Below, piece by piece: positions 2,037-64,000 of a stretch of 64,000 nucleotides of DNA. The stretch is from Tetraselmis striata (Eukaryota > Chlorophyta > Chlorodendrophyceae > Chlorodendrales > Chlorodendraceae). The stretch covers positions 22,533 to 86,532 of the forward strand of contig VCJN01001568.1 in NCBI GenBank assembly GCA_006384855.1. The letters are read 5' to 3'. Position 1 is the first letter of the stretch, and the number at the start of each line of letters is the position of its first letter. The position numbers and the translations under genes were made by a program. The notes below the pieces were generated by a model. It saw only the letters and a program-made list of their open reading frames with translations. It did no database searches and was not told where the DNA came from.

Positions 2037-2072
2037 GGCTCATGCAGCTCCGACGAGCGGCGCCCCACGCCA

Positions 2073-2927: not shown

Positions 2928-3040
2928 AGTAACGCACGGACGTACGGACGAGAATATCACACTCGGATGGCGAGCCGGGTGTGGTCTTGAACAACCTGGG
3001 GTGACCTTGCTCGCAACGGGTTACGAGACAGTTTTTACAT

Positions 3041-13300: not shown

Positions 13301-15657
13301 GCTGCGCTGCGGCTGCCAGCAGACACGAGCGACATGCAGCGCGACCAGCTGGTGCAGGACGTGATCAAGATGGTGGAGCTGGACAGCCTGCAGGACCAGC
13401 TGGTGGGCGTGCCTGGGCTGACAGGCCTGTCAGGGGAGCAGCGCAAGCGGCTGACCATTGCAGTCGAGCTTGTATCCAACCCCAGGCACTTTGCCCTCGC
13501 CCCCACATGCTTGCTTAGTGACTTCCTCTGCGACTCACGGCGTGTGTCTCGCCACACTTACTGCTGCCTCTCTGCATTTCAACATGGTGATGGTATCCTT
13601 TGGCTCTCTGTCCGTCCCACTCCTGTTTGTGCCTGCGCAACTCGCCCATCGCCGTGTTGCTAACTGGGCGCCTGCCCGCCGTGCCGCAGCGTGGTGTTCC
13701 TGGACGAGCCAACCAGCGGGCTGGACGCAACGGCCGCCAGCGTGGTGGTCCGCACCATGCGGACCATCAGCGAGGCGGGCCGCACGGTGATGGCCACCAT
13801 CCACCAGCCCTCCATAGAGATCTTTGCCGCATTCGACGCGCTGGTGCTGCTCAAGCGCGGCGGCCGGCTCATCTTCTTTGGGGAGCTGGGAGAGGCCTGC
13901 GCCAATCTCATCAACTACCTGGAGGATCAGCCCGGCGTCCCCAACATCCTGGACGGCTACAACCCTGCCACGTGGATGCTGGAGGTCTCGGGCGGGGATG
14001 TTGAGGTCAACGGTGTTGTCAAGGACTTTGCCAACCTGTATGAGGTGCCCCCCCCCCCCCCCCCCCCCCCCCACCCCCCCTCCCTCTCAGCCATACACAC
14101 TGGTTCGGCAGACTGGCACTTCCCCAAACAGAATGTGCCCAAGCCAGTGCTCACATGCTGTGTGCGGTGCCTTCCCTGTTCCTCGCAGGAGTCGGAGCTC
14201 AAGGCGGCAAATGATGCGGAAGTGGAGAACGAAATCACGGCCAGCCAGTCCGCCCCCAAGATCGACGGCAGTGGCGCAAAGTCGGTGCCCCTGGGACGGC
14301 AGTTTGTTTTCCTCCTGCGCAAGAACTTCCGCACGTACTGGCGCTCCCCCAGGTGAGGCGGCCCTCCACAACCTGCGTCAAACGCCCACCGCCACGTACC
14401 CCGGTGTCCGCCGCATCGCACCGTCGCTCACGCGCCCGCTTCCGCCGCCGCAGTTACAACATCACGCGGATGATCGTCATTGCGGTGATGGGCGCCATGT
14501 ACGGCTCCATCTACTGGCAACAGGGCCTCGCCATCACAGGTGGGGGCAGCCCCCCCCCCCCCCCCCCCCCTTTGCCTGCACCCCCTCTGCCATTCTGATC
14601 TGCCCCTGGCGCTGTGCATCGGGGAATACGTGCAGGCCGTCATCCCACCCGCGGGCCACAAGCTTGCCGCTAACAAACCCCCCCCCCCCCCCCCCCAACC
14701 CGCCGCCGCGGTCCCCGGCTCACCCTTGTGAAATGTCCACAGCAACGTCCATCGACGAGAACCGAGTGCAGAATTTGCTGGGCGTCATCTTCAGCTCCAT
14801 CACCTTTGTGGCGGTGTTCCAACTCACGGCCGTGCAGCCGATTGTCGCGTATGAACGCTCGGTGAGGCTGCTGCAGCTGCCATCGGTTTCCTGCGGCGCC
14901 AGCGTCCCGCTTTCTGTCGTCAGCCTCCCACATGAGGGGAGCGCGTAGACCCTCCGTGACCTGTTGACAGTGTTTGGCACGGAGGATAGAGAAACCAATG
15001 GGTCTGTCGCGCCTGGCTGAGCCCTCTGCTCCCCCCCCCCCCCCCCCCTGCCAACCCGCGCCCCACCAGGTGTACACGCGCGAGTCGGCAGCCAACATGT
15101 ACAGCGTGTGGCCGCAAAGCCTAGCGCAGGTGCTGGTGGAGCTCCCCTTCCTGGTGGTGCAGGCGCTCATCTTCGTGCCCATCCTGTACTTTATGGTCGG
15201 CTTTGTCCCGGACGCCGGCAAGTTTTTCTTCTTCCTGCTCGTCAACCTGGCCAGCCTCTCGCTGTTCACGCTCTTCGGGGAGTGGCTGGTGATGGTGACG
15301 CCCAACCAGCAGCTGGCGCAAGTCTTTGGTGCGGGGCTGAACCAAGTGTGGAACATCATGTGCGGCTTCCTGGTCGCGTTCCCGCTCATCCCGGCCTGGT
15401 GGCAGTGGGCGAACCGCGCCACGCCCTCCACCTGGCTCATTTACTGCATTGCCGCCAGCCAGATGGGCGACAGCCAGGCCGTCGTGAAGGCGGTGCTCCC
15501 CGGCGACGAGCGCCCACTGGGCGACTACCTCGCCGCCAACTTTGGCTACGAGTACAGCTTCCGCTGGCCGTCCCTCGGCATCGCGCTGCTCTTCATCCTC
15601 TTCTTCCGCATCACCTCCACCCTGGCGCTGCGCTACATAAACTTTGCCAACCGCTAA
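7320..15657 (+). CDS. Full-size ABCG/PDR-type ABC transporter, 21 exons
   Basis: Exons 7320-7879, 8393-8567, 8669-8719, 8839-8934, 9077-9154, 9302-9445, 9614-9869, 9991-10135, 10542-10660, 10794-11020, 11134-11493, 11609-11879, 11990-12135, 12328-12536, 12682-12863, 13197-13485, 13690-14044, 14189-14352, 14454-14539, 14743-14861 and 15070-15657 join in phase to 1539 residues. Order is N-tail, NBD1, TMD1, NBD2, TMD2, the reverse (NBD-first) topology of plant/fungal PDR exporters. NBD1: Walker A GPPGGGKS ~270, signature VSGGQ ~425, Walker B LLLMDE ~445. NBD2: GGSGAGKT ~977, LSGEQ ~1084, VVFLDE ~1104. Such pumps export hydrophobic compounds at the plasma membrane; the substrate is unknown. Intron 16 needs a GC donor. 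The exon 6/7 junction is the least certain. Confidence 0.93.
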
Positions 15658-30300: not shown

Positions 30301-32480
30301 GGAAGGAGCACATATTCCTATTCATATTCCTCTTATTGGCACCACCCCCTTCTGCCGCAACAGTTCTCACTTCCCTCATTCTCACTTCCCTCTGACACCT
30401 TCCCTCTTCCGGGCGCATGGGGTGCCTTTCTTGGCAGGTTCGAGCGAACTTGATTGGCTTCCGCGGATACGAGGTGGAGGGCGAGGACGGCTGCTTTGTC
30501 TGCGCCTTTGGCAACGCAGTGGATGGGCTGGAGTACGCGGTGTCGCTGCAGGATTGCATGGCCGAGACGCCATGGGACCCCGAGCTCCTGCAGGCGAGCT
30601 GGTGCCGGACGGTGGTCTCCAACGGGAGTCAGCTGCTGTCCGGCCCGCGCCTCAAGATTGGGCTCTGCACGGCGGACGCCCTGCAGGCGCAGCCGTCCAT
30701 GCGCACGGGGAGGATGGAGTACTTTGGATGGGTCATGAACCATGCGGCGCGCGTGGCGGCGGCTGCGCACGGCGGGCAAGTGCTGTTCCATGAGCACACC
30801 CGCAAGGCGCTGGACATCGACAAGCTGCATCACTCCGTTGTCGTCAAGTACTGCGGGAAGCACAAGATGAAGGGCATCAACAAGTCCATCAACGTGTACC
30901 AGGTGGGCGGCCAGATGTGCAGCCTTCCTGTGATGTGCGACCATTGGCCTGCTCAGGATCAATGGAAGAGAGGATGGCATCGGCGTACCATAGCACCACA
31001 AAGCGTGTGGTAGGCATGGAGGAGGCGCGGGCTGTTGAGTAGGTGGACATGTTATCATCATCGTACAGTCAGACATTATTAACGCACTGGATGTACGCAT
31101 GGCAGGCATGTGGACCGCACTTTTGGGAGCACTCCTTCCCTCCGCTGGACACCAAGGATGTGGACAAGACTCTGCAGCCGCTGGCGGAGTACTTGGCTCT
31201 GCAGGGCGGCGACAAGCGGAGGAGCTCCATTGCCAGGCTGAGCTTTGCCAGCTGCGGATCTTGTTTGGACAGAGAGATGGAGGGTTCTGAAGACCCCGAG
31301 GTGGATGCCAAGCTGGAGGTGCGCAACGATTGTCCGCCGGTTGCGAGCACGGGCTGTGCATGCTTGCATGCAATGTAGTGAACATATAACCATCCCGAGA
31401 TCAGAAGCTGTGCTGCTCGTGTATGATAGCTGCACTGCCGGCTGGCGCCTGCCTCTCTGGTTTTGTCTCCCGGACTCTCTCTCTGCCTGCACTGCGAATG
31501 AGTCCATGAGTTCTGCTGCTGAGCCATGCTTTTGCGCCTGCAGAATATCGTGAATGAATCGAGAAAGAGCACCGAGGTCCACCGGAGGCTGACGCTAGAT
31601 GACCGCCTCCGGCGAGTGATTCCAAAGCGCAACGGCAGCGGACGCAGTAGCTTAGATTCCAGATGCATGGAGCTGCGTGCAGCAGAACAAGGAAAATACA
31701 GTGGTGCGCCCATCGAGCAGTATCGTCGGCAGCTACGTGGTGCGATGCCTGCGGGAACGACGCAACATGTGAAATTTCGCACATCGCAAGGGGCCAAGGA
31801 CGAGTCCCAGGAGAAGGTAAGGGCCTCCCGGCCATCGCTGACAGTGTTGGTCGATGAGACAGCCAACGGTTGGCGCAGGTTAACATTGTGAGCGCAAAGT
31901 CATGACATTACGCTTTCATGCTCTTGTGGCTTTGTCATTGGCAGTACCGAGGGCATTGGATTCGGTGCTATCCAATTACCGCCACACTGAGTGTGCCCAC
32001 CATCCTGCCCCCCCCCCCCCCCCCCCACACACACACCCTCCCTTGCAGGTCGATCCTGTGGGGATAAATACCGAGCCCCCGCCGACCTGCCGCCAGCAAA
32101 TGTCAACGAGCAAACGTGACGAGAGCTCGTCGCCTGCCGCTCCGCACATCGGGTTACACCGTAGTGGCAGGCGCTTCTCAATGGGAAGCACCACCGGCTC
32201 CAAGTCTCTGGAGTTGCGGCCTGACCGCCTCTCTGATGAGCAGGAACAGGCAGATTTAGCTTGGGCAAGCTCGCGGCGGCCTACGCTACTGGACTTTGCG
32301 ACAGCCGGTCCTGCCTCGGGGTCCAGTGAGGCCAAGGCTGAGCCCAGCCTGCCATGGGACACGAAAGCATTGGACAGTTTTGCCAGTGCTGCATACAAGC
32401 TGCCCGACAGCCCTGGCACAACTGGCAACGCCAGTTCCCCTGGGAAACGCATCCCAAGCGCCAGTGACAATAGGGTGTGA
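24351..32480 (+). CDS. Receptor-type class III nucleotide cyclase with two cyclase domains, 18 exons
   Basis: Exons 24351-24461, 25155-25349, 25682-26130, 26234-26313, 26577-26700, 26792-27323, 27502-27627, 27733-27847, 27967-27998, 28138-28279, 28552-28652, 28745-28891, 29153-29733, 29911-30091, 30438-30902, 31106-31318, 31544-31816 and 32049-32480 join in phase to 1432 residues. A signal peptide (1-~26) leads a Cys-containing ectodomain resembling glycine-betaine-type binding proteins (e.g. ~270-330). One membrane helix spans ~470-492. Cyclase domain 1 (~515-775) keeps metal Asp525 (VITDIQGST) and Asp568 (EGDSF), but Ala721/Ala725 replace the catalytic Asn/Arg. Domain 2 (~930-1125) lacks the metal Asps (Phe941, Gly990) but keeps Asn1073 and Arg1077. 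Together they would form one composite site. Glu986 at the base-selecting Lys position hints at GTP use. The Ser-rich tail is unrecognised. The first intron is the least certain. Confidence 0.85.
28931..29069. repeat. Microsatellites in a cyclase intron
   Basis: A (TG)n run near 28931-28951 and a GTAT tetranucleotide run near 29036-29069, both inside the intron that splits the domain 1 active-site loop. Confidence 0.8.
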
Positions 32481-34831: not shown

Positions 34832-35356
34832 AATTATAATAGCACGCTGTGTGTGTGACAAAAGCGCAGTACCAGCAAATCCACCGCTGAAATCAGTGGA
34901 TGTTTTTCGCCAACGACGGGACAGCATCACAACAGGATCTCGTCCCGAGACTTTTAATCACTATACTAAAATTATGCTAGTCACTACAAAGTCAGGATTA
35001 TGTAGCGCGCTATACCTTCAGTGAGATTCATGTTGTATTGCTGACGATGGATTGTATGATCTAAACTAGTTTATGGGGTTTCCTCCCTTGACCTAACCGC
35101 TTTTCAACTACAAGTGCTGCTCAGTGGTACGAGAACTAGGCACCTGTCGTTGCGCCCTTTTTGGGTGCAGCACGAGTAGACATAAAAGCAGCCATAACAG
35201 CTGAGCATGCCATCTTCCAATTTTCGCTGCGTTCCACGCAACGATGTTAAAACTGTCTTGTAACCTGTTGCGAGCAAGGTCACCCCATGTTGTTCAAGAC
35301 CATACCCGGCTCACCACCCGTGTGTGCTATTCTCATCCGTACGTCCGTGCGTTACC

Positions 35357-36227
35357 ATGTCAGATGGAGAAGAACCCGTCGTTGAGTCGACGCTCGAATC
35401 GCTACACGCATACGTGAAGGCCCAATCTACATTGCTGCGCGAGCTTGCAACAGCGTTGGCCCAATTGACGGCTCGTGATCGTGTTGTTGATGGAGACGGG
35501 GCACATGGCTCCGGTTCCGGGCAGCGCATCGCGGGACAGCCGACAGGCAGCGGGACAGCCGACAGGCAGCGCCCCGACTTGCTAGAGCTAGCCCAGAGCG
35601 GCCGTGTCGGAGCAAAATCCGTGAGTGACGAGGATGACTACCTCGCGGTGCTAGAGCTACTGCAACGAGCAGAGTCTGGTTACGAGGCCGTTCGACCGGT
35701 CAGCCGAGTGCCTGGACTCTTCCCCCTGAGCACCGACCTAACGAACGAGTACCTCAAGCATGATGACCGGCGTCTGCCGGCTTTTGAGGAGTATCTTTGG
35801 ATGGCGTGTTTCAGCGCCCACATGGCCGCACTTTTCGTAGCTCTCGACGAGCTGCTGCCCTACGTCCCTGCTGCAAGTCAGGACTTCACTCCCTACCTCG
35901 CGCGAGCTCCGAACCACGCCGAAGCCGGCGTTTCGCTTTCGTTTGGCCTTTCTACGGAGGCTTGATGAGGTCAAGCGTGTGCACGGTGACCAAGGTGTTC
36001 TGGACGTGCTGCGAGCCCATCACTTTCAGCATGCTTATGAGCATATGGGTTCTGCGATTTTTGGGGACCTCATGAGGGATTGCGAGCGTCGCGTCTACGA
36101 GGCGACAGTTGCCAGCAACGCAAAAGCGACCGCTACCGCTCGGGTAGCGGCAGCGGCTGCAGGGCGCGGGCGTGGACGAGGACGTGGTGGTGGACGCGGG
36201 CGTGGCCGCGAAGGCGAGCACGAGTGA
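35357..36227 (+). pseudogene. Frameshifted gag-like gene of copy 2
   Basis: Starts with the same MSDGEEPVVE, but a small deletion near 35925 (where copy 1 encodes an IDK) shifts the frame. The second half continues in another frame (from ~35943) through the Gly/Arg-rich tail to 36227. N-terminal indels are also visible relative to copy 1. Confidence 0.8.
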
Positions 36228-36263
36228 CGGTGTGGGGAGCCTTTCGTCGGAGCTGCTGGAGCT

Positions 36264-37908
36264 TTGCGAGGCCACCTTTCGGTGACCGCCGCAAAGCGCA
36301 CCCTGGCGGCTCAACGACGGGATGAGTGCCATGTGTCAGGAGCTGAACCCCCCACCTTACAGACTTCGTTTAGACCTTCCTCGGTGCGGCGCTTCTTACA
36401 GCTACAGCCGAGTGCGGCTCAACCATCCGCACACCTCTACATGGCGGCTCAACCAACCGCCTCCCGTACCATTTCATCACTGCGTCCGTCGATTGTCACA
36501 CTGCGTGTTACAACCGGTTCGCAACGACCAAGCTTCGCGCGTGTACGTTACGCGCGTGACAGGCGCTACGAGCGCGAAGGGCGCGCGGGGCGGCCCTCTT
36601 ACCTGAACCTAGCCCCGCAAACCCGTATAGATGCTGTTGCAAACCCGTCCAGCAACTACGTACCGGCCAACCGCCGGGAACCTAACCGCTGCTGCCGAGT
36701 ACTTTGCTAACAATGGCCGCCCCCCTTGTCACTCTGTCGGTAAAGCGGCGCATTTACGTAATTGACGAGCCCGAAGCTGTCGCTCCTTGGGCTTCTTCAC
36801 TGCGATCTCGACTGCATGATGCTTTCGGCTCAGACGAGTTAGGTAAGGGCAGCGGACGCTCGACCTGCTCTCGAGCTCCCTCACCGCTCTGACACTCAAG
36901 AGTACGCCGGCAGACTCTCCTAGTTCGCGGAGTTCTGCCACGACTCCGAGAACATAGCCCGCTGGAGGCGACCTCTGCTACTGTCGTCCGGTACGTTGCA
37001 TGGATTGGTGAGCGAGGGCATATTATCGGGGCTAAGTCGCTGCAGCCCTACCTGTCCGCAATCAACACGTTCTTCGAGCTGCACAACCTCGACCCAATCG
37101 CCAAGGACAACCTGCACCTTACTGCAGCTAGGCGTGGGCTGATGCTGCGGCAGCGCCGTCTAGAAGCCGCCCCTTTACGAGTTCCTCTGCCTGCTTATGT
37201 AAATAGCTTACAGCTTAGTTCGTCGAGCGGGCCGACTTCATTGTGTCTGCTGCCACCACAGAGTACCAATACAACTTTCGAGCCCTGGTGGCCTCGGTTG
37301 TCAACTTCATGTGCTTTGCCAGGGGACTTTTTGGCGTGTCCTGCCGAGTGCGGGATGTGCATGTCAACGATTACAACATTGCCCTGCAGGTGTACCGCGA
37401 GAAAGGTCGCGCTGGCCGACGGGGCCGCGACGACATGCGCGTGCTTCTCCTTCCGGTGTCAGAACACCCCCGCGGTGCACATCTCCTTTGCATTACTTCA
37501 TCGACCAGTACATTCTGCCCCCCTGGTTCCTGTTGCCTTGGCTGAAACAAACTTCTGGGCGGTCACCCCAAGCGAGCAGTCCAAATCTTGGACCGTGCCG
37601 CTACAATGTCGGACTGGCTATCTGCAACCGTTCGTCTTGTCGGTGCTGCCCCTCCCGCCGGCACTTCCTGGACCTCACACAACCTTCGCAAGGGAGCAGC
37701 GTCTGCCGCTAACGCCATCGGAGCTCCATTGTCCCAAATTCGCTACCAAGGCGGCTGGGCTACTAACGACGTCGTTCTGGACTACATCGACCCCAGCATT
37801 CTTCCTTCACCCGGCGCGTGGTTCTTCTTTGGCCACATTGCGCCCCTCCGCCACTTCCAAGTCCAACAGGACTCCGCAGCGGTGGCCTTCCCGGTGCCTC
37901 CTTTATGA
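36264..37908 (+). pseudogene. Broken tyrosine recombinase of copy 2
   Basis: Matches copy 1 in pieces: 36264-36710, then a shift, an in-frame TAG near 36918, further shifts around 37200 and 37490, and a final open piece 37588-37908. The catalytic HNLRKG and the GGW...VVLDYID tyrosine motif survive in the last piece. Not functional as it stands. Confidence 0.8.
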
Positions 37909-38290
37909 CATGGCGCTACCCCTTCTCCGTCAATCCCCCGCTCTCTCCGTTCGCTCATGACTGGCAAAACCAGACTCAACTTTGAAATGATCTAAACTAG
38001 TTTATGGGGTTTCCTCCCTTGATCTAACCGCTTTTAAGCTACAGGTGCTGCTCAGTGGCACGAGAACTAGGCACCTGTCGTTGCGCCCTTTTTGGGTGCA
38101 GCACGAGTAGACATAAAAGCAGCCATAACAGCTGAGCCTGCCATCTTCCAGTTTTCGCTGCGTTACACGCAGCGCCCCCCCTGACTCCGTTTTCCCTCCA
38201 CGCTTTCACTTCACCTTCCTGCCAGTTTCGGCTCTTGACCCTGTACAAGTCCCTGCGCAATCTTTTGGCAAAACCAGACTCAACTTTGAA

Positions 38291-46365: not shown

Positions 46366-49300
46366 TCAGTCGGCCTGCTGCTTGCCGGGCAATTTGAAGA
46401 TGAGGGGGTTGGTATGCGGGCGAGGCGGTTGGTGGTGCGCCGCCTCCGCCAGCAGCGTGGCCGTCTCTGCGTCGTCCTTCCCCGCTGCTGCCGCCGCCAC
46501 CGGCGGGATGTCGGTAGTGGGGTACGGCAGCATCGCGGCGCCCAGGGGCGGCAGCCACATGGCAAGCGTCTGCCACAGCGTGCGCGCAGCTGCATGGCCA
46601 GCGGGACAGGTGCCGGGGTGTTAGTCACGGCCGTCAGCGCCGCAATCATCCGTGCGCACAATTCTGCATGTCCGCAAGGACATCACTACGGCAGCAGGGG
46701 TAGTCATGTACACGAGAGATTGTACAAAGCATTACATACTACTTATGCTCGGTGCCAGTTTTCACCCGATGCCCAAAAAGGCTGACAACCCACCACAGCA
46801 GGGACGGGAGCAATGTGTTATTGCTGTCTGGTGGAAGGAGGAGCGGCGATGACAGATAGGGCTTCGGAGCCAGCACATGCCTGCCACTGGTTCTCATCAC
46901 ATGGTTTCGGAGCCAGCACACGTCTACCACTGGTTCTCAGCATATCGTTTCGGAGCCAGCACACGTCTACCACTGGTTCTCATCACATGGTTTCGGAGCC
47001 AGCACACGTCTACCACTGGTTCTCATCATATGGTTTCGGAGTCAGCACACGTCTGCCACTGGTTCTGATCATATGGTTTCGGAGCCAGCACACATCTAGC
47101 ACTGGTTCTCATCATATGATTTCGGAGCTAGCACACGTCTAGTTATGATCATATGGTTTCGGAGCCAGCACACGTCTAGCACTGGTTCTCAGTAAACAAT
47201 GCCTGTTTCACAGCCACGACATCAGGGGACTCTCCAACCAGTTCTGCTGCAAGATGCTCTTGCATCCGTTGTGGTACCCCCGCACTCTCGTCCCCAAACG
47301 TTGCATTGCGGTGTTTAATCATGCAGAGGCGGTCGCGGGGGCGCACCAGGCGGGTACAGGATGGGCACAAAGGAGAGGAAGACGCTGAAGGTGGCGGCCT
47401 TGAAGGCCGGCGAGCCTGTGGCGGCGATGAAGGGGAGACCCCACGTGAAGTACCTGGCGGGTGCGCAGCAACGGCAGGGGTGGGGGGGGGGGGGCATGGT
47501 TCAGGCGCTTGCCCGCAGAGGGAATGCTCATCACATGCGACACGACCCCAGCCCTTCAGAGGCAGTGAGACAACTAGCTTTCTGAGGCTGGCAAAATCTT
47601 TCTGGGACATGTGGCTTTGCAACCAGTGATACGTTCTGTCATGTGGTCCGGAAATACTGGACGTCGGCGCTCATCCCTCTCTCGAGGGAAAAGAGTGTGT
47701 GTGGGGGGTGTGTTTGGGGGGGGGGGGGGGGGTATGACGACGCTGTGCAGGCGATTGCGGACTCGCGGTTTCGGAGCATGAACCTGACCAAACGGGCCTT
47801 GCACTCGCTGCTCAGGGCGGACAAGAGTTGGGCAGCAGCATGCGGACAACACCACAGGTAATGGTGCTCTGGGAATAGGCACACATGCACGGCGGAGCGG
47901 AAAAGTGGCAGCTGGTTATGGGGGGAGGGGCAGGGGCAGGGGGCGCACCAGAAGTGGACGATGGGGGAGCAGCTGAGCAGTAGCAGGAAGAAGGCCTCCC
48001 CAAATACGGCGAACCGCGCCTGCCTCTGGGCCTTGGGGCGCAAGGCCTGCGGCGGCCGGCAGGCAGCGGGATGGGGGTTAGGGTTAACCTTCCAAATAAT
48101 GCGCAAACTACCTAGAAAACACTGGGCATACCGGTGAGGTATGCATTTCTTACTTGGCGACCTCCGGGAAAAAGGACATTTTACACATGTACACAAAACT
48201 TTGATGAAACATGGATAAATAAACGGACGTGCGCGATAAATTGCTGGGCTTCCTTGGAACTTCGCAGCCGTAGAATATGGTAATAGGAATCTACTGCGGG
48301 GAAACGGGGGGCACTAAGAGGGTTGCTGCCAGGGCTGTGCACAAGTCGCGGCGGGGTTTCCTTACGCCCTAACGCAAGTAAAGTAATGACATAAGACATA
48401 ACTTTCGTATACATGGCACGATACGCATAAATGGGTGACGGGATACGCGCAACATAAAGACTTACGGCATACCGTGCAATTGAATACGGTTCGCAGGGCC
48501 AAAAAATGGATTGTTTTGCACCTTTGCGCCGGAACATGTGTGATCTATTCTGCTTTATTCTGATTTATGTCGACGTTTAAATAGTTTTTGCTTGCGCGCG
48601 GGGGGGGAGGGGGGGGGGGGGGCTCGAAAACGTTATCCATCCGCGAACAGTTGTTGTATTTGCTCGGTAAGCATACGCATTTATGGTATAAATCATGACA
48701 CGGTCTCCGTGCTTGTTGGCGGGCGGTGCTTCGGTTTTGACGTCTTGCTGCTGCAGCGCACCTCCAGCACAAAGCGGCCAGACAGCAGGAGGGCGAAGAG
48801 GGCGACAAAGTGGTAGTTGCTCAGCTGGGGTGCCCAGGACGGCGCCGCCTTGGTCACCAGCGTCGGCAGGAAGCAGTTGAAGCGCGCGTTGCGCGCCCAG
48901 TCGGAGCTGAGCGGCGCCAGGCGGCAGGAGGCGGCGGTGCAGAAGGGCGCGGCGGACAGCGCCAGGGGGGTGAGCCCCAGCAGCAGCACCGCGGCGCTGC
49001 GGGCCAGGGTGAGCCCCAGCCGTGGCAGCAGCTGGCGCCACTCGCCGCGCGGGCTGCGCGTGGCGGCGTGACGCGGGGACGCCAGCCACAGCAGGCGCAG
49101 GACGGCGGCAAGACACTCCATCCACTCCCCTGCGAGCCCCCCCCCCCCCCCCCAGCCAAGCCACGCCCGTCAGTGCCTGTGCCCTCAGCACACGAGCTGG
49201 GAACGCACGCTGCGTGGGGGACCCACTCATGTCGCTGTGCAATTAAGAGAAAATGTGCCGCTTTGCCATCAAACTGTCCAGGGTGCATGGCTCGTGGGTA

Positions 49301-51308
49301 TCAGCGTCCAGCATACCGTAACCACGCTTTGGCTATACTACTGGGTGTGACCCCCCCCCCCCCCCCCCCCCCGGCATGGGCGAAGAGAGAAATACCATAT
49401 CTATCTAAAATCAAATCAGAATATACCACAGATAGATCTTCCCTCTCATCGCTGCAAAAGAAGCGAACAATACATCTTTTGACCCGCGATCTGACCCAAT
49501 GAAACGGTTCCGGTAATCGTCAAGCGGGTTTGAGTGCACGAGGCGACGCCTGGGGCGTGTTCCAAGTGTTTTAAGAACACACACATGGGTTTCAGAGGGC
49601 TGCATGCTACGGGCTACGGCCGACTGAATGTGGGTTCATGCAACTGGGGCGTGGGACAGCTGGCCCGTGTGGCTGGAAGACTGGCAGAAATAGCGTAATA
49701 ACTGTAATCTTAATATGGGAATATCAAAATAATAGTAATAGAATAATAGCAATAATAGTAAGACATTTCAAACTACACACCTCACCACGGGAACCAAGCT
49801 CACCCGTGATGGCGGGCAGTCAGGCGGCTGCAGCCCGCACGCACCTTCCGCGAGGACCACAAAGCCCAGGAAAGGCAGCGTGACCCACTTCATGGCCGCG
49901 CTGCAGCCGATGAGCAGCGAGGTGAGGCACCACTTGCCGCGCTCAAATGCCAGCCTGAGGCACGGTCGCCGCCGGGGAGCGATGGTGATAGTGGTGGGGG
50001 AAGGGAGGGAGGGAGGGCAAGGGAGGTTCCATCAGCGACCCGAAGACTGCACCACAAGCGGCGCAGCAAAGGGGGGGGGGGGGGGGATCGCGCGCGAATC
50101 GATTTTGCCGGCGCAGTCGCCAGCGATTATTTTGGCACACAGTAACAATGGGGTGCTCCATAGACGCCAGGCGCCATTAACCTTTAAAGGACTGATGTAT
50201 CGGAATTGTGTACACGGCAGTGGATGGGTGCCGACGCAGACACAAACGCACCACAAATAGGAACCTGCCCAACGTGTCAGAGGTGAAATGTAGACGAAAC
50301 CAAAGCGGACATATAGTGAATGTTCTTGTAGGTGGCGAACAAGCCCGATTTGAGGCGCATAATAAGGGTTTGCACAGGTGCGTCGGCACCCGTATGTGTT
50401 TGTGGAGGTGGGCAGCAAGACAGCGCACACAAGAGAACAAACGCAGTAGCAGCGCTGGGTGACTGCAGCAGCGGTTTCCATCCAGGGGCAGAAGAAGAGT
50501 GGCAGGTTGGGGGGGGGGGGGGGGGGGGGGCACCAGCCGAGCACCAGCGGCAGCACGACCATGCTGTCGTAGTGGCCCCCGGACGCCTGCGCGAGCAGCA
50601 CAAGCGGGTTCCAGCCGTACAGCGCTGCGCGATGGGCGCCGAACTGCCTGCTCAGCAGCCTTCAAGTGGGATCCATATGGCCCAGGAAGGGAGGGGGTGT
50701 GGGTGAGGTGGGGGGGGGGGGGGGTCAGTCTGATGCTTTACGATGCTGAAGTGTAGCGTTGTTATGACAATAACATGCCAACACACGTATATTTTGTGGA
50801 CAAGTATATGTGGTATACGAGTTCGTGTGCTTAACGCCGTACCGGTACTACCTGTGCGGTTTAGGTGTGCGATGGTTGCGGCCCGCCGGGATAACAGCAT
50901 TATTATTATAACCACCGTGGCACCGCTGCTCCCGCTGAGCACTCTGACGGCGCCGTTTGACTCCCGAGCCGTTTTTTTTTGAGAGAGATCGCGACTCTCC
51001 AATTCAAGGTGACGCACTTAGCAGTGTGTGCTGCCAGAGGCTGCTGTGACAGCCGGCTGACCTATGAATAGCATCGGGTGGTGGCATTGTAACTGTAACC
51101 CATCTCGTTCTCTTGTCTATGCGCTCCTCGATCGCGCACTGCACCAACCACCGGTCTACAAAACGACCCTCCGAGGCAACAGTGTCGCATGGCAGCTGGC
51201 GCAAATATCTTGGAATTTGCCGCCAGTTTTTGAGCGAGCCGGAATTACTTGTTTGCCTGGCTGTGAAGAGGATGTGAAACAGTCGGTGTGTGTTTATGTG
51301 TGTGTGTT

Positions 51309-51348
<40 letters not shown>

Positions 51349-54300
51349 TGGGGGGGGGGGTGAATGGGTGTGTAACAATGCACATAGATAGTAATGTGTT
51401 TGGGTCATAACCACTCACGTGGCACATTATCACAACAGTGCCAGGTGCCCATGCTCTCACAGTTTCTGCTGTTGATCGTGTGTGTCGGGTCCAAAAGGCG
51501 GGGGGGGGGGGGGGGGGGGGGAGGGGGGGCGCACCAGGTGATGACCATGTCCACCGAGGTCACCAGGACCTTGAAGTGCGGCACCCGGGGCGCCACAACC
51601 GCCGCCGCACGAAAGACTGCGTGAGTGCGCCACGCCGCGGCAGGCGATGTCACGCCGGCGGGCTTCCCCGGGAAGGTTGGTGGTGCGGAGAGGGCAGGTT
51701 GATGAAAACGTGGGGGCTGAGAGAAGTGGGGGGATGGTGGGGGGGGGGAGGGGGCTGTACCGAGCTGCGCGAGTGGTGGGTATGTGGAGGTGACGCTGGG
51801 GTGGTTGCAGCCTGCGCGCACCTGGCAGGACGGGCAGCCGTATTGTTGTCAGCGGCAGATGGCGGGTGCAGCAAGTGTGGCGGCTGAACAACTGCCTGGC
51901 TGTGGCTCTACGCTCAATCCATCGCTGGGAAAATTGCGGGAATGAACCCCAGCTTCCCGTAGCTGCTGAACTATCACGGCCATGCAGCGCTATCCAGCTA
52001 GCGGCTGAGCGGGCACCTGGTCAGCATTTTGTATTACACCTTTTTGTAAATATTTTTGTAATTCCAGGGTGATCCAGAAGGAGTCGGGGGGGGGGGGGGG
52101 GGGGGGGGGGGACCTCCTGTCAGCTGTCCCCAAAAAACGGTGTGCCTATAGGTTACAACTACCCTATCACCAAACTATAGCCGAATTGGATCTATGAGTA
52201 TCACTAGAAGGTGTCCTATGTTCCAGGGCTCAGCTCTGCCATTGTCTGCCATAGAATTGTGAATAGCACAGCCACATGGCGATACAGTGGTGGCATGAGC
52301 AGGCGACGTGGCAACCCCAATTCCGCGGGAATGAGAGAGCCCGCAGGGGGAAGAAGTGGTCCGCTGCGGTCGGGAAAGGGGTGAGAGGCCCGGGGGGGGG
52401 GGGGGGGGGGGTAACCTGGCTGATGTAGTGAGACCCGGCAGCTTCCGCCACCTGCTTTGCCACGTCAGAGCCCGGCGCATGCTCGTACGGGCTCAGGCCC
52501 TACGTGGGGGACAGGGGGCGGCTCCCCGCTCAGCGCCATGGTGCTCCAGCGGTTGTGTGTGTGTGTGTGTGTGTGTGTGTACAAGCCTGCAGATCCGCTC
52601 CTTTTCTGCTGCATTGCCTCTGTACATTCATGCAAGAGACGGCAAGGCCAGCCAAGCGGGGAAGGAGGTGAGGTGGGTGGGGGTGGGGTGGGGGGGGGGG
52701 GGGGGTCCTAGCGTGATGGAGGGGGCGCGGGCGCACCTGCCGCTGCAGCCAGCCCTCCCACACGAAGCGGAAGATGTCGTCCCCGGCCGTGTTGGCGCCC
52801 ACCAGCAGCAGCAGCCGCGCTGCCCAGGCAGCCAGCCACAGCAGGGACAGTGGGATGCGTGGCGCGCCCTGCGCCGCAGCCGCAAGCACAGCAGGTGGAT
52901 CAGGCGCCTCCGTGGGTGGGGATGAGGACACCAGCGGGTGTGCGAGAAGCGGCGGAAAGGGGGGGGGAAGAGTTGTGCGTGTGCAATGGCGATTCTTGTC
53001 TTGCGGTTGCGTGTGTGTCGGTGGGTGGGTGATCTGAGGATGGGTGGTCGTTGGTTGGGGTGCATGCATGTACACTTGGATGGAGAAGATGGCACGAGCG
53101 GAGGGAGGATTGGAGTTGGGCGGGTGGGGGGGGGGGGGGGGGGGGTCACCAGCAAGGCAAGGTAGCTGGCCAGCTGCAGGAGGCATCCAAACACAAAGCG
53201 CTGCTTGGCGCCCGCCTCGCGCGTGTCATTGCTCAGGGACACCTGGGGCACAACTCACGTCAGCAGGCGTCTCCTCAGCTGATTCTAATGAGATCTCATG
53301 GAGCAACTGAGCGGCGCCAAGGGGGGAGGGGGGGGGAGGGAGCCCACCTCGAGGGCGCCGTACACCAGCAGGAAGGCGGATAGGTAGGCGAGGCGCTGGC
53401 GCCATGCGGGCATCCCACGCCACTGCTGCTGCTCCCGGCTGCTGGCAAGCTCCCAGCGGCGCGGGGCTGCGCGATGCGCCCCGGGGGAGCGCGCCACGGG
53501 GTGCATCACCATGTCCGACAGCTCCTGCGGGGCGCGGCCGGCGGACAGCGGGTGAGCCCCTCTGCCTGCGTGTCTCTGCCCGGGGTGGGGCAGTGCATGC
53601 CGGGCCGAGCGACCTGGGGCTCAACCTGCAGGTACATCTGCCCGATGGTCAGCAGGATGATGGCACCTGCGTGCAGCGAGCCCTGCAGCGGCGGGGCGCC
53701 CAAGGGGAGGAGTGGGGGACACCGAGTCAGTCCATGGGCTGCAAGCTCCGCACAACAGCCCTCCTGCGGCAGGCAGCTTGTCAATACTGACTTGTCATGC
53801 TGTGGATAGTGCTGACTCTGGGTGGCCACATAGACAGTAGTTCGAGAACGCCTGGCGTCTGGTGTTGGCAGTATCAGTGTGCGCAGAGAGGGGTGCGCCC
53901 GGGTAACAACAGCCGCGACTCCCTGCGCACCAACTCTCGACGTTGGGGTCCCTGATGCGAGAGGCTGGGCAGCGCCGGGTGGCGCCACACTGGTCCGTAC
54001 CTTGATGGTTCCCGAGATCTTTGACTGCCCGCGCAGACGCGGGCAGTACTCCACCGGCACTTCCGCCACCCTCACCTCCCGCCACGGCTGCGCTGCCTTC
54101 ACCTGGTGCGGCCGCGGACAGGGAGGGCGGCCTCAGTCCCCTTGCCCACAGAGCATGCTGACACTCCGTAGGTGTTGTACTGTGCAGGTGGCGGTGGCGA
54201 GAGCTGGGTGACAGGGCGGGGCCAGGGTCTCACCTGCATCTCCACCGTCCACCCAAACCCGCGGTCCTGCATCTCCATGTCCAGCAGCGTGGACTTCCGG

Positions 54301-55141
54301 ATCAGCCGGAAGGCGCCCAGGTCGTGGTACCGGTGGCCCCAGCTGCAGGCCAGCAGCCAGCACCGCCAGTCAGAGCAACGCTCGGACCCCCCCCCCCCCC
54401 CCCCTCCCGGGCCCCTGTCCTTCGGATTCGCTAAACGTCACCCCGCGTAGTTCGGCGACGCACCCCAGCGCCATCAGTGTGGTCGCCAGCCAGTTGCCAA
54501 AGCGCTGGGGCATCGTGAGCCAGCGCCGGCTGCTCTCTGTGGCCGTGCGGTCGCCTATTACAAGGTCGGCGCCTTCAGTCGCCTGCGAGTAGCCGTGCCA
54601 TGCGAGCCTCGTCAGCTGTAGCAGCGCCACCACCAGCATCAACTCCAGTCCATGCCCACCTATGTGCCCCACCCATCCCAACCAAGCAAGCACAGCTCAC
54701 AACTGCCCCAGCTGTTTGCCCAGCCTGCATGGCTATAAGGCGTCAAGTTGTTCTGTCGTGAGCGGGGAAGCTGGCCAAAGTGCAAGGGCGGGGGGGCTTG
54801 CCACCTCCAGGAGCCGAGGAAGTTCCGACACGTCGTCCTGCCCGTCGCCCGCGGCGAACAGCACGGCCTCACACTCGGGCCCCAGGTGCTGCATGCCGCT
54901 CCAGCAGGCCTCGCCGTAGCCGCGGGAGCGCTCCACCACCACCTCCGCCCCCGCAGCTGTCGCCGCCGCGCCGCTGCCATCGCTGCTGCCGTTGTCCACC
55001 ACCAGCACGTGGCCAACGCCCGCCCGCAGCAGCCTGCTCACCACGTCCTACCCAGCGGCATGCACGCGCCCAGCTCTCAGACCCTGCCCAATCCCCTCGT
55101 CTCCCCTTTGCCTCAAGTCAACGCGAAGGGGCGTCAGTCAG

Positions 55142-55188
<47 letters not shown>

Positions 55189-55429
55189 TTGAAATTTCTG
55201 AACATATGCATGCAGATAGAGCGAAGACACACACGAATCTGTAGGCACCGGGCGGCGTCATGCTGTTCGGCCAACCCCGTCCCAAATGAAGCCCCTTTAC
55301 ATGCCGTGCAATGCTGCAGGTCGCGCCTGGCGGCGGTAGCACGCGTACCCCAATCAGCTCCTCTTCGTTGAGAACCGGCACGATGGCGGTCGTCCGAGCC
55401 GCCAGGAGCTTCCCCGCCGTCGCCGCCAT
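46366..55429 (-). CDS. GT2 glycosyltransferase fused to a GT-C membrane mannosyltransferase, 18 exons
   Basis: Exons on the minus strand: 55429-55349, 55047-54805, 54582-54464, 54342-54234, 54102-54001, 53682-53626, 53524-53348, 53242-53150, 52868-52737, 52499-52416, 51821-51761, 51616-51535, 50647-50534, 49954-49845, 49129-48762, 48046-47949, 47453-47347 and 46589-46366. All junctions keep phase, giving 786 residues. Residues 1-237 form a GT2 transferase of the bacterial-like dolichyl-phosphate sugar synthase type: IVPVLNEEE, VVDNGSSDGS, AAGDGQDD, GADLVIGDR, FGWTVEMQV and KISGTIK. From ~238 begins a multi-span GT-C (GT87-like) protein: GDDIFRFVWEGW, GLSPYEHAP, TSTYPPLAQL, YGWNPLVLLAQASGGHYDS and SPIVHFWYFTWGLPF. 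The halves join through a 101-bp phase-0 intron (53525-53625). An alternative end at 47315 skips the last exon. Two adjacent genes remain possible without cDNA. Confidence 0.8.
46863..47190. repeat. 43-bp minisatellite in the last intron of the GT fusion
   Basis: About eight tandem units, each beginning TTCGGAGCCAGCAC and ending near GGTTCTCATCAYATGG, at starts 46863, 46906, 46949, 46992 and so on; one late unit is shortened. It lies inside the predicted intron 46590-47346. The period is not a multiple of three. Confidence 0.85.
51304..51358. repeat. (TG)n and poly-G tract in a GT-fusion intron
   Basis: About 20 TG repeats followed by a G-run (C-run on the coding strand). Confidence 0.85.
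52555..52581. repeat. (TG)n microsatellite in a GT-fusion intron
   Basis: About 13 TG units in the intron before the GLSPYEHAP exon. Confidence 0.85.
55142..55188. repeat. (CT)n(CA)n microsatellite in the first intron of the GT fusion
   Basis: A compound CT then CA dinucleotide run in the intron between the first two exons. Confidence 0.85.
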
Positions 55430-59243: not shown

Positions 59244-59542
59244 TGTACCGTTCATCTCCAGCGGTCAGCGAGGGCCTCCCGCTCCGCCCTCCCCGCCCAC
59301 TGGCCCACCTATCTGTGCACCCACATCACGGTGATATCAAACGTGCAGGGGCTAGCACGAGCACCCACTGTCCCTGCGAGTACTATTGGGTGAGAGCACG
59401 TGCGGGAGCAGCGGGGGCGCTCTTCTCTGGCGTGCCCCTTGAGGGAGCGCTGCAGTCGCGGCACTGCTGAACATGAGGAGGCCATGAGCAGGCAGAGGGC
59501 TCATCTAGATGCAGGGCCAGCCCCCCCGCCCTTCATCTGTTA

Positions 59543-62500
59543 TTATTGCCCCGGCGGCCCGGCCATTTGCTGCAGCGACTGCAGGTATGCCTGCGGTGTC
59601 CCGATGTTGAAGCGCTCGCCCTTGACGCAGATGCCGACGAGGCCCTGCCGCGGGGGGGGGGGGGCGGGGGGGGGGGGGGGCGATCAGCCCAGCCCATCAA
59701 GCAACCCCCCCGCCCCCCCCCCCCCTCCTCCAGCTCTCTTGTGCTGCGGCAGGGTGGCCAGCAGCAGGGCGGCCGCACTTGCTCCTTTCGCAGGCTGTCC
59801 AGCGCGGGCGTGAGCTGGAACTTGCCGCCCTGCCGCAGGTTGTTGCGGATGTTGTTGCCCAGGTGGCGGAAAATGGCTGGCGGGAGCACGTACTGCCCGT
59901 AGAAGGTGAGGAAGGTGTCCTCTGGCAGCGGTGGGTTGCCCATCACCAGGTTCCTCTGCGCGTATGCCTTGGTCGGCTTCTCCGCGAGCTCCGTGATGCG
60001 CAGAACAGAGGGCAGACCGCCCCGGTGCCCGTGGGGTCCGCCCGGCAGCGGCGCGCTGCTGAGCGAGGCGAACGCGTCCAGCATCGCCTTGCGCGGCCCC
60101 AGCGGCACCCCCATCTCGCGTAGCTCCTCGGCGGTCAAACACGGCAGCTGGCTGTACAGCAGCCTGAGACCAAGCAACGCCGCATGCCACCTGTCAGACC
60201 ATCAGCCGCTCACCTAGCCGACCCCACGCAATCACAGAAACACATAACACTGAACGCGCAATGATGCATGTGTGTGTGAACATTAAATTAGGTCCATGAC
60301 TCTCCCCAAAACTAATGTGCTTGGCCACATTGCATGGATAATCCCGCTTCATTCCTACGTGTTGTGACTATTCGATTGTTTCCGCTGTTTAGGGGTATAT
60401 GGGTGCGTGTGCATGTGTCATGGGATGGCATACACTTTTGGGGGGGGATAGGGGGGGGGGGGGGGGACATGAAGGGCCGGGGGGGGGGGGGGGGGGCGGG
60501 GGGGGTCACCGCTCTGATAGGAAACGCTCCGCGTACTGCGAGAGGCCGAGGTCGTCCAGCGCGCGCTCGACGAGGTTTGCGTGGCGCGGCCGGGCAGCGG
60601 CAGGGCTGTCGCCGGGGTCGTCGTTGGGTTCGTGGATCCAGGTGCCGCAGGCGGTGCCAAAGTTGTGCACGTCCTCCACCTGCGTCTGCATCAGCCCCAC
60701 CACTGGGCACTGGTGGTCCGCAAACGCGTCGAGCAACTGCGCCGCCACGGGCGTGGCCACCGTGGAGCGGTACACATGGTGCCCGATCAGCAGCAGGAAG
60801 GGCGAGTCGCCCACGGCCTCGGCCGCGCAGAACAGCGCGTGGCCAAACCCCTCCTGGCTCGGCTGCACGATGAGCCGAACGCGCTCGCCGATCGCCAGCA
60901 GCTCGCGCGCCACGTCACGGGACGCGACGGGCAGCGTGTTGAAGTTCTGGTGCGAGTCCGGCTCGTGGAAGAGGCGCTGGAAGACGGGCACGTCGTCCGC
61001 CTGGCACACGATGATGACCTCCTCAATGCCCGCACCCACGAGCTCCTCCACGTGCAGCAGGATGGCGGGCTTGGCGTGCCCCGCGCCGTCCAGCACCGGG
61101 AACATCTCCGTCTTGACGGCCTTGGAGCAGGGGTAGAGCGCTGAGGAGAAGCCAGCCGCGGGGATGACGGCCTTGGTGACGCTCGCGCCCGGGCGCAGGG
61201 TCAGCGTCAGCGTATCCATGCCAAAGTCGCGGCTGATGATTTCCGTCACGGCCGCCTGGTCCTCGGCGCTGCGCGCCAGAAGCTGGGCGGTGCCGTCCCC
61301 CTGTGACCCCACGCCCTTGCCGCCCCAGATGTGCGGCTGCAGCGCGCCGTGCGCCAGCACCGCATGCAGCAGCGGCGCGGTCAGCTGGGCCGGGCAGGCG
61401 GGCGCTCCCAGGCTGTCCCAGCCCGCCTGCGCCTCGCTCATGAGGCGCCCCAGAGCCTCGCCGTCGCCGTCCTGCAGGCGCCCGATCGCCTGTTCGCAGA
61501 TGCGCTTGTTGACGGGCCCCAGCAGCTGGTGCACGCCGCGCGACACCTCGTCCCGCGGGAAGGGGTAGCCCGCCTGTAAGCTGGCGAGGATCTCCGTCGT
61601 GCTCTTGCTGCCCGCGAGGTCCACGACGACATAGTGCAGCGGCGGGCCGCGCAGGCTGAGAGGCTCCACGCCCACAAACTCCCCGTCGTAGCGCATGACG
61701 ATCGGACGGTCGCCGTACGCGCAGCCTTGGTCCATGCGCCCGCACCGGGAGGGGGTGGCCAGCTCGCCTGGAAGCGTTTCGAATCGGTGGGTGCCAATGG
61801 GGGCGGGTACTCAGTAACAGCATGCATGTGGTCGCGGTTGGAATGCTGCTCTGGCTCGGGTAGCTCAGCAGGGCGGGCAGGCGTTGACCATGGAGGGCAC
61901 GGGATGTCAGTGCAGAGACATGCATGTCGGCGGAAGCGAGCCGGAGGGCAGTCACCCTGGTATGCGTACTCCATCTCGCCGCGCAGCGTCATCTTGATGT
62001 CGTAAACCTGGTTGAATGCGCGGGCCACCAGCACGCAGAACGCTGCGCTGCTGGACAGCCCTTTGCGCATGGGCAGGTCCGTCCTGTAGTTGTAGATCTC
62101 CAGGCCCCCCACACGGTAGTCCACGCAGATTTTGTACGCCACGCCCGCCGCATACGACCAGAAGCCGCCCTCCTGCGCGACCTTGAGCAGCGCCTTGGGC
62201 TCCAGGTCCAGCTCGAACGGTCCCACTACCTCCCCTTTGTCTGTGGTGGTTGTCAGGATGAGGGAGGAGGGGTGCCGCTTCACGCGGGCGAATAACCCCT
62301 GGTTGGTGCCGCATACGATGGTGACGCCTAGTGGAGGCGGCGGTGCACAGTCAGGATGCATGCAGCTGTCACCGTCATGCGCGCCAGCTAGCAGAGCCGA
62401 TGCTCCGCGCCAACATGCCCCATGCCAAGTCCTTAACGGATGGGCACGCCCTGGTCACCTGGGGTGATGTCTGCATTGAAGCGCGTGAAGCTCCCCGCCC

Positions 62501-62660
62501 AGTCCGTGTGCTCCCCAAAGAGGCAGACGCGCCCTGGGACGAAGAGCTCATGCACCTCCCGCTCCCTGCTCCTCGCCACCTGCTCCAGGTTGACTGAAGA
62601 GGCTCGCGATGCTGCAGGGGGGCGAGCTGGCGAGCCGGGAGGGCTCATGAACAGACTCAT
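59543..62660 (-). CDS. GHMP sugar kinase fused to a nucleotidyltransferase with an inserted SAM domain, 5 exons
   Basis: Exons 62660-62459, 62327-61956, 61767-60510, 60163-59779 and 59644-59543 join in phase to 772 residues. The kinase half (~25-365) has the galactokinase-type motif GRVCLFGEHTDW (~43), PMRKGLSSSAA (~153) and GGKGVGSQGDGT (~340). From ~388 a GalU/UDP-glucose-pyrophosphorylase-like domain begins (TKAVIPAAGFSSALYP). It is interrupted at ~588-645 by a SAM domain (LDDLGLSQYAERFLSER, then LTAEELREMGVPLGPRKAM). It resumes with LRITELAEKPTKAYA and ends VKGERFNIGTPQAYLQSL. The usual Arg of the GxGTR motif is Ala here, so activity or substrate may differ. A salvage kinase plus nucleotide-sugar synthase is the likely role; the sugar is unknown. 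Plant FKGP has the opposite domain order. Confidence 0.87.
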
Positions 62661-64000
62661 GGCCTTCTAAAGAGGCCCACTAAAGAGCGCAGCCCCCTAT
62701 TGGGCCTATTGACTAGGTGCACCGGCCCCAGCTGGCTACACTAGCCTAATCCTTGGCTGAATTTCGCATGGGCTGCGCCGTGCTGATTGCGGAGACTTGG
62801 TCAAACGCACCCGGGGGAGCGCTACTGGAGCGGGTTGCAGCCCATGCACGGCATGTCTCTAAACCCCCATGTCTGGTCGTATGTCCTCTTATGGCGATAT
62901 CTAAGGACTATCCCGAACACGTTGATTGATGCGGTGGTTCTTGTTTGCCGCTCGCCGGCCCATTGCTGAAGTGCCAACAATGAAGCCCGTCGTCGTCGAG
63001 ACATTTACCCATAGTCGCTAGTATGGTTTCATAGTCGTTGGTTTCTGCCTGCTGTTTTTTATGCTGCTGAAATCAGGGCGCACCGCGCGCCGCCGCTCGC
63101 GAGATGAATAGTGTGGTGCTTTTTGGGGGCCCGGCGGAGGACCGGGGGGGGGGGCGGGGGGGGGGCGGGGGAAACAGAATAATCAAGCAAATCGTCCGAC
63201 GTGTTTAGCAGAACAGGGTAAGAACTTTATATCAACCGGCTTGTGCAGAACGAGGAGCAGAATGGCAAATTGGAGTACAGTGGATGAGACGCGGTCATTG
63301 TGTGTGTACTGCAGGCGTCAGAATTAATGAACGAGTGGGTCTTAATCACGCCACATGTCGCCAAACTGATTGCCGCCCTCTGGGCATATATCCTCATCTT
63401 CACTCGAGCTAGCCGCCCCTAGTAGTTGCACAATGGATGCGGTGGCGTATGGTGGACATATACGAATTTACATCTAGCATATAACGGACTGGCGTGCGCA
63501 TGTACAAAGAGCGTCGCTTAAATGCTCAGGCCGCAGCCGGAAAGTAACAATGACGCTACCGTTAGAACCCTCAAACCCTAAACCCTAAATGACGCTTTGT
63601 TTTGTTATATAATCCTTATACCCGGTACCAAACGGTTCGCTATACCGCGTGGGGCACCGAATTGAAGTTCGGGTGTTAAAAACCTTTCATTACTTTTGAC
63701 GCATGCAGCCGGGTTGTGTATTAAGTAGTATACGCTTGCCGTTTTTTTGGCCCCCCACAGTAACCTTGGGGTGATATGGGGCTTTATTTGGGCAGCGTAC
63801 TCTACACCCGTCCATAGGGGGGTCTATCTAGGGCTCTCGGCAACTGGCCACTACAATGGCGGCGGTGCGGCGCCCGCGCCCCGGTCAGGGCGGGTTGCGG
63901 ACCTCTAGAATAACGTACGAGGTACTCGAACCTGTCCTGATGGCAGACGGCGTGGCGGTATCAGCAGGTCTGCGGCGTCAAGGCCGGGGTCGGCCGGTCG
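62661..64000. other. Terminal intergenic region
   Basis: Upstream of the kinase gene. No gene seen. It includes a G-rich run at ~63143-63172 and short AT-rich stretches. Confidence 0.5.
63573..63589. repeat. Short telomere-type run (CCCTAAA)
   Basis: AAACCCTAAACCCTAAA, two units of the plant/trebouxiophyte-type telomere repeat in an interstitial position. Too short to be a telomere. Confidence 0.7.

Follow-up and report, generated by a model that had tools for sequence, protein, structure and literature searches.

The genome of the green alga Tetraselmis striata carries a gene in which a GT2 glycosyltransferase domain is fused to a GT87-type membrane glycosyltransferase of the GT-C class. 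The gene occupies 55429-46366 on the minus strand of the window, by which we mean the whole 64,000-nucleotide stretch analysed here (contig VCJN01001568.1, positions 22,533 to 86,532, assembly GCA_006384855.1; the assembly comprises 224 Mb in 2,903 contigs). The fused architecture is present in the genome, and its product is likely a single polypeptide. The functions joined are probably those of a polyprenyl-phosphate-sugar synthase and of a transferase using its product, and on balance we favour the reading that one nuclear gene encodes a two-domain membrane enzyme by which a lipid-linked sugar would be made and then used. More tentatively, the pathway may also use a TIGR04282-type enzyme, with arsenosugar lipids as its most specific candidate product.

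Rebuilt from the sequence, the gene has 18 exons and 17 introns, all of them GT-AG (Table 1), and the exon phases agree throughout. The coding length of 2373 nt gives 790 amino acids and a TGA stop, in one open frame in which the GT2 domain (residues 1-237) precedes the GT-C domain. This agrees with a preliminary description of the same DNA, which held that the whole 18-exon chain stays in phase and that the exons ending in MYLQ and starting with ELSDMV meet in phase 0 across 101 bp; the domain boundary coincides with this intron, the sixth. Residues 238-262 and those after about 736 lie outside every alignment made. A search of the assembly found no second copy of the gene, and two further own-genome matches (E about 0.006, with internal stops) were rejected as such. 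A copy of exon 3 with little flank and without the adjoining exons, at ~4290-4410 of locus L103 (contig C977:12000-21000), is a gene fragment and the one other good match in the genome. A RuBisCO small-subunit match fits a photosynthetic host, and pherophorin (PF12499) gave no match in a search that was equally silent in its controls. At least four introns (8, 10, 12 and 13, downwards from 53149, 52415, 51534 and 50533) contain long C runs beginning a few bases past the donor, and repeats of roughly 43-60 bases (TTTCGGAGCCAGCACACGTCT...) were spotted by eye in intron 17 at about 46860-47190.

Residues 15-165 of the GT2 half match Pfam PF00535 (Glycos_transf_2) with E 1.6e-10 and 41.6 bits against a cut-off of 23.3. 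The best curated model is AglJ (TIGR04182) at 107 bits, below its cut-off of 325; two further lipid-phosphate sugar synthase models score 54-55 bits, and the best relative of solved structure is an archaeal dolichol-phosphate mannose synthase (E 1.8e-6). A scan of 84,980 species genomes gave at least 272 confirmed stretches, and the best 80 of these bacterial relatives are 35-50% identical to the GT2 half, headed by an Acidobacteria metagenome-assembled genome at 50%. Set against the archaeal synthase, this identity upholds the earlier view that the GT2 half is bacterial in type, and sequence comparison thus supports a bacterial relationship. The same comparison, which drew on the PDB and bacterial genomes and on no eukaryotic proteome, does not favour eukaryotic DPM1 as its nearest kin. 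Canonical DPM1 was not found in the host genome with a Streptomyces Ppm1-like query run without a positive control, and the best own-genome PF00535 match (C1691) is not DPM1-like by eye. A viral origin was rejected, the 25 relatives from a scan of viral contigs including, as the best by E-value, one with 33% identity over residues 14-210. The phylogeny of the GT2 half that had been proposed as a check, run as a quick tree of 91 rows with 21 actinobacterial loci left out, places the algal domain inside the bacterial family (Shimodaira–Hasegawa-like approximate likelihood-ratio values of 83-92 on the enclosing forks, none starred); its sister group among the bacterial rows is not resolved.

Active-site positions of the GT2 half can be compared with those of PfDPMS (5mlz), a dolichol-phosphate mannose synthase of the same fold family, although the algal domain is far closer to the bacterial proteins. 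D95, R120, R206 and K212 are invariant in 109/109 bacterial rows and shared by the alga; at position 97 the alga has Gln where 101/109 bacterial rows have Ser. Asp91 and Gln93 of PfDPMS, which hold the metal according to an excerpt of PMC5526996, have D95 and Q97 as their counterparts in an alignment that opens a two-residue gap just before; R206 and K212, in an RGxSK loop, appear equivalent to Arg202 and Lys208, the basic loop of that enzyme. As these counterparts align and Ala93 stands at an Asp position, the metal site seems preserved and the contact to the sugar altered.

The GT-C half was assigned through a profile, A3, of 11 bacterial GT87-like proteins from GT2 loci, whose rows had first been selected by a profile with the algal sequence among its seven seeds. 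Ten of the 11 members match Pfam GT87 (PF09594), and the alignment of the profile with the GT-C half covers 355 columns (hhalign probability 99.7%, E 1.1e-25); together with the PF00535 match, this supports both family assignments made in the preliminary description. The GT-C half keeps 12 of 13 A3-invariant residues, including the acidic first-loop D111. At the threshold used, no hydrophobic segment falls within the GT2 half; the first begins at residue 282. A3 also finds glycosylphosphatidylinositol (GPI) mannosyltransferase 1 (E 2.4e-8), matches two designed proteins by a short stretch (E 0.003-0.006) and weakly matches mannosyltransferase 9dm5 (E 0.12), which we take to be PimE. The likeness to the GT87 / GPI mannosyltransferase 1 class is thus found by profile, and the algal half is distant in sequence. 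Enzymes of this class use a lipid-phosphate sugar as donor, and we know of none among them that is fused to GT2. The nearest single bacterial sequence to the GT-C half (25% over 464 aa, E 5e-24) is encoded at locus L028, where it directly precedes that locus's own GT2 gene. The membrane genes of L007 and L008 were first aligned as GT87, lack the GT87 motif and were dropped from later profiles.

The two families are also linked in bacteria. Within flanks of up to 7 kb per side, many ending at contig ends, a GT87-like gene lies near the GT2 gene in 23 of the 80 best chromosomal loci, a count given by both profiles used: the first was built from seven seeds, the algal sequence among them, and the second added 14 of the loci. 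The commonest partner tested (GalU was not counted) is a TIGR04282/DUF2064-like gene, found in 54/80 loci with a profile whose seeds include only L021 among the 80. At least one of GT87-, TIGR04282-, TIGR04283- and ArsM-like genes occurs in 67/80; the ArsM and TIGR04283 counts carry little weight, because L021 was the sole source of the ArsM profile and the TIGR04283 profile was seeded with three of its own four hits. Similarly, 17 plasmid records match the GT2 half, and among the 11 whose contexts were examined a GT87-like gene is present in 7 and a TIGR04282-like gene in 10. One plasmid protein of Miltoncostaea oceani (WP_217924567.1, 651 aa, annotated as glycosyltransferase family 2) carries both families in one polypeptide, as in the alga; unlike the algal gene, it has them in the reverse order, GT87 then GT2, and is without introns, and the next gene encodes DUF2064. 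Neighbourhoods of GT2, GT87 and TIGR04282/DUF2064 (such as L002, L003, L021 and L182) hold the two algal families side by side as separate genes; the TIGR04282-like exon of the host sits on a different contig from the fusion. In the acidobacterial L182, for example, GT2 is followed on the same strand by GT87 and then by TIGR04282, with GT2 and GT87 in the algal order and 24 bp apart. Among the top 20 contexts of the 52 Acidobacteriota genomes with an algal-type GT2, TIGR04282-like genes occur in 4. The GT2-GT87 linkage is therefore recurrent, and far from universal. The adjoining bacterial genes and the reverse-order fusion in Miltoncostaea argue that the algal gene joins linked functions.

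Four actinobacterial plasmids (L003, L005, L007 and L008) share a recurrent set of GT2, DUF2064/TIGR04282 and methyltransferase genes, and several also hold methylthioadenosine-phosphorylase-type, epimerase or molybdopterin-oxidoreductase genes. This set suggests that 5-substituted ribose-1-phosphates may be activated there.

Known GT2 synthases of this kind act on the cytosolic face of the membrane and GT-C enzymes on the other. In the two-domain enzyme that we favour, the GT2 domain, resembling dolichol-phosphate mannose synthase, would move a sugar, perhaps an unusual one, from a nucleoside diphosphate (NDP) sugar to an isoprenoid phosphate on the cytosolic face; the loaded lipid would be flipped across the membrane, and the GT-C domain would take it as donor on the other face. 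Because the two faces are opposite, the lipid is expected to flip between the steps and not to be handed over directly, and the fusion would keep both steps together at a fixed ratio. The idea that a lipid-linked sugar would be made and then used, already put forward in the preliminary description, gains from the bacterial neighbourhoods and the Miltoncostaea fusion.

Several observations weigh against a two-domain enzyme of this kind. The active sites of the two domains would face opposite sides of the membrane, and 57/80 bacterial loci (many cut by contig ends) and all except 3/20 Acidobacteriota contexts show no GT87-like gene. Taken by itself, the GT-C half gives no match at E<=1 to either Pfam or NCBIfam models, nor does the fused protein match Pfam GT87 directly at that limit; the gene model and the fusion are read from genome sequence. 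The donor of intron 6 (CAG/GTTGAG) scores 3.0 bits, a value reached by 22% of the gene's 479 GTs; its acceptor scores 11.7 bits, reached by 0.4% of 455 AGs. Of the consensus splice ends described previously, the GT-AG pair and a strong acceptor therefore stand, and the donor is weak. The related statement that neither stop nor start separates the halves holds in so far as the GT2 frame is open across the intron; a Met codon of that frame lies inside the intron, however, and the GT-C frame has a stop beginning at its third base. Were intron 6 retained or the locus bicistronic, two proteins would result: the GT2 frame would end at a TGA within exon 7 (53508-53506), and the GT-C protein would start at either ATG flanking or overlapping that stop (ATGGTGATG), the first Met of the GT-C frame being the fifth codon of exon 7. 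The weak donor and the coincidence of stop and start as TGATG favour this arrangement, as does an excerpt of PMC11892635, which calls bicistronic nuclear loci pervasive among green algae and gives a median inter-ORF distance of 183 nt for C. reinhardtii. On the other hand, removal of intron 6 with its strong acceptor unites two phase-0 ends exactly at the domain boundary, Miltoncostaea also fuses the families, and retention would add to the GT2 protein some 39 residues without an aligned homologue. We consider two proteins unlikely. The polyadenylation signal of green algae, TGTAA, is absent from intron 6; between 44000 and 55500 the sense strand holds seven copies, one of which (45161) lies beyond the stop codon.

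A further difficulty for the two-domain enzyme is that the first Asp of the DxD motif is gone: the alga has A93-G-D95, and position 93 is Asp in 108/109 bacterial rows and Gln in one. In the excerpt of PMC5526996, the corresponding Asp89 of PfDPMS contacts the mannosyl group, so that the GT2 half might be altered or degenerate, no longer making a standard lipid-phosphate sugar and serving instead with another sugar, in regulation or as an anchor. The retained metal-site counterparts, the kept R120, R206 and K212, the frame that is open throughout and the residual activity of PfDPMS D89A reported in the same excerpt all argue otherwise, and we regard an altered or degenerate GT2 half as the least probable of the readings considered. 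An ordinary hexose pathway to a glycolipid or glycoprotein, unrelated to arsenic and compatible with the favoured enzyme, is a real possibility somewhat short of an even chance. Upstream on the same strand (-), at about 59536-62666, a GalU-like nucleotidyltransferase domain (PF00483, 40 bits) comes after pieces that resemble galactokinase or GHMP kinases. The pyrophosphorylase domain (60509-61810, -) reaches 86 bits with the GalU model (cut-off 327) and E 3.4e-20 with a GalU-type protein in the PDB, and a galactokinase-like piece (61441-62454) reaches 24 bits; kinase and pyrophosphorylase seemingly form one spliced gene, kinase first, which could supply the NDP-sugar. A hexose would also fit the 77/80 bacterial loci without ArsS in the flank. 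Yet adjoining eukaryotic genes are often unrelated, the partner most often found in bacteria is TIGR04282 (in the tests above, which did not count GalU), and the sugar-contacting Asp is lost.

The arsenic lead comes from bacterial gene sets for arsenosugars (ArsM, ArsS, TIGR04282 and TIGR04283), with which GT2 relatives sit in a few loci. L021, from Lentisphaerae, encodes ArsS (TIGR04167, 384 bits, cut-off 300), an aquaporin-family protein, an ArsM-like methyltransferase below the ArsM cut-offs and GT87, and a single open reading frame (L021:6989-9013) joins GT2, TIGR04282 and TIGR04283. L013, the best GT2 relative among the matches listed, carries consecutive ArsS, TIGR04282 and GT2 genes and, pointing towards them, a GT87 piece; L036 has GT2, GT87 and ArsS within ~6.5 kb; and in L176 ArsS lies ~0.5 kb before GT2, without GT87- or TIGR04282-like matches. 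Most GT2 relatives have no arsenic gene nearby, which counts against an arsenosugar role: ArsS is beside GT2 in 3/80 loci and in 1/20 Acidobacteriota contexts, and of the 19 ArsS regions, several of which are truncated, only 3 have GT2 nearby. At the level of genomes, ArsS exceeds its cut-off in 18/46 genomes of the closest loci. Among 199 Acidobacteriota it occurs in 16/52 genomes with an algal-type GT2 (>=197 bits, a threshold set at a score gap after the scores were seen) against 15/147 without (two-sided Fisher p 0.0013, with no correction for relatedness); with the limit of the search itself, E 1e-40, the counts become 21/93 and 10/106.

In the host genome, unlike these loci, the candidate genes are dispersed. 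At C2841, five ArsS-like pieces fall between positions 2 and 302 (of 303), and C418 and C1310 carry partial copies; a profile of ten bacterial ArsS proteins confirmed the ArsS match. A TIGR04282-like exon lies on C1502 (39 bits), TIGR04283-like matches lie on C554 and on C1298, where two of the pieces contain stops, and ArsM-like exons reach 74 bits. These matches fall below curated cut-offs, as is expected where exons split the gene. With a threshold this loose, 14/14 control genomes likewise give ArsS, TIGR04283 and ArsM matches, and 3 give a TIGR04282 match, which makes the ArsM-like matches particularly weak. According to an excerpt of PMC11009773, C. reinhardtii makes arsenosugars, and arsenosugar-phytol (arsenoribose-phytol) dominates its arsenolipids; that excerpt names no enzyme for it. 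The literature searched, in titles and abstract openings and with subscription journals largely outside, gave no description of a glycosyltransferase of the algal arsenosugar pathway, or of a GT2/GT87 fusion. The fusion might supply the missing glycosyltransferase steps: 5-deoxy-5-dimethylarsinoyl-ribose, made by ArsM and ArsS, would be activated by a TIGR04282-type enzyme, the GT2 half, its sugar-contacting Asp gone, would load it onto an isoprenoid such as phytyl or dolichyl phosphate, and the GT-C half would pass the arsenoribose to a glycerolipid, yielding the arsenosugar-phytol and arsenosugar-phospholipids found in green microalgae. We offer this proposal as a doubtful one, about as improbable as two separate proteins.

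Table 1 Exons of the fused glycosyltransferase gene and the intron at its domain boundary.
Feature	Coordinates	Strand	Description
Exon 1	55349..55429	-	Start codon; GT2
Exon 2	54805..55047	-	GT2; AxD motif FAAGDGQ, residues 91-97
Exon 3	54464..54582	-	GT2
Exon 4	54234..54342	-	GT2
Exon 5	54001..54102	-	GT2; R206 and K212 in loop RGQSK
Exon 6	53626..53682	-	Final GT2 exon, C-terminal MYLQ
Intron 6	53525..53625	-	101 bp, domain boundary; donor weak, acceptor strong
Exon 7	53348..53524	-	Linker and first GT-C exon, N-terminal ELSDMV; TGATG within if intron 6 is retained
Exon 8	53150..53242	-	GT-C
Exon 9	52737..52868	-	GT-C; acidic first-loop motif GDDIFRFVWEG
Exon 10	52416..52499	-	GT-C
Exon 11	51761..51821	-	GT-C; NHPSVTSTYPPLAQ motif
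Exon 12	51535..51616	-	GT-C
Exon 13	50534..50659	-	GT-C
Exon 14	49845..49954	-	GT-C
Exon 15	48762..49129	-	GT-C
Exon 16	47949..48046	-	GT-C
Exon 17	47347..47453	-	GT-C
Exon 18	46366..46589	-	GT-C end, tail without aligned homologue, TGA

Elsewhere in the window, two look-alike stretches, 414-3020 (-) and 35264-37957 (+), are partly phage-integrase-like (PF02899 in 414-2039) and by eye share a leader peptide; they are perhaps two copies of a tyrosine-recombinase retroelement. Pieces of an ABC-2/PDR-type transporter (PF01061) and an adenylate/guanylate cyclase domain (PF00211) lie at 13664-15654 (+) and 30396-31010 (+).

Two fusions in opposite orders, and the recurrence of the pair as bacterial neighbours, link a GT2 family about which little is known with a GT87-like one; the two probably act in consecutive steps. 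Many bacteria encode the two enzymes as adjoining genes, and a few such sets also make arsenic-containing sugars. If the arsenosugar link is true, the Tetraselmis fusion would be a candidate gene for the attachment of arsenic-containing ribose to lipids in green algae.

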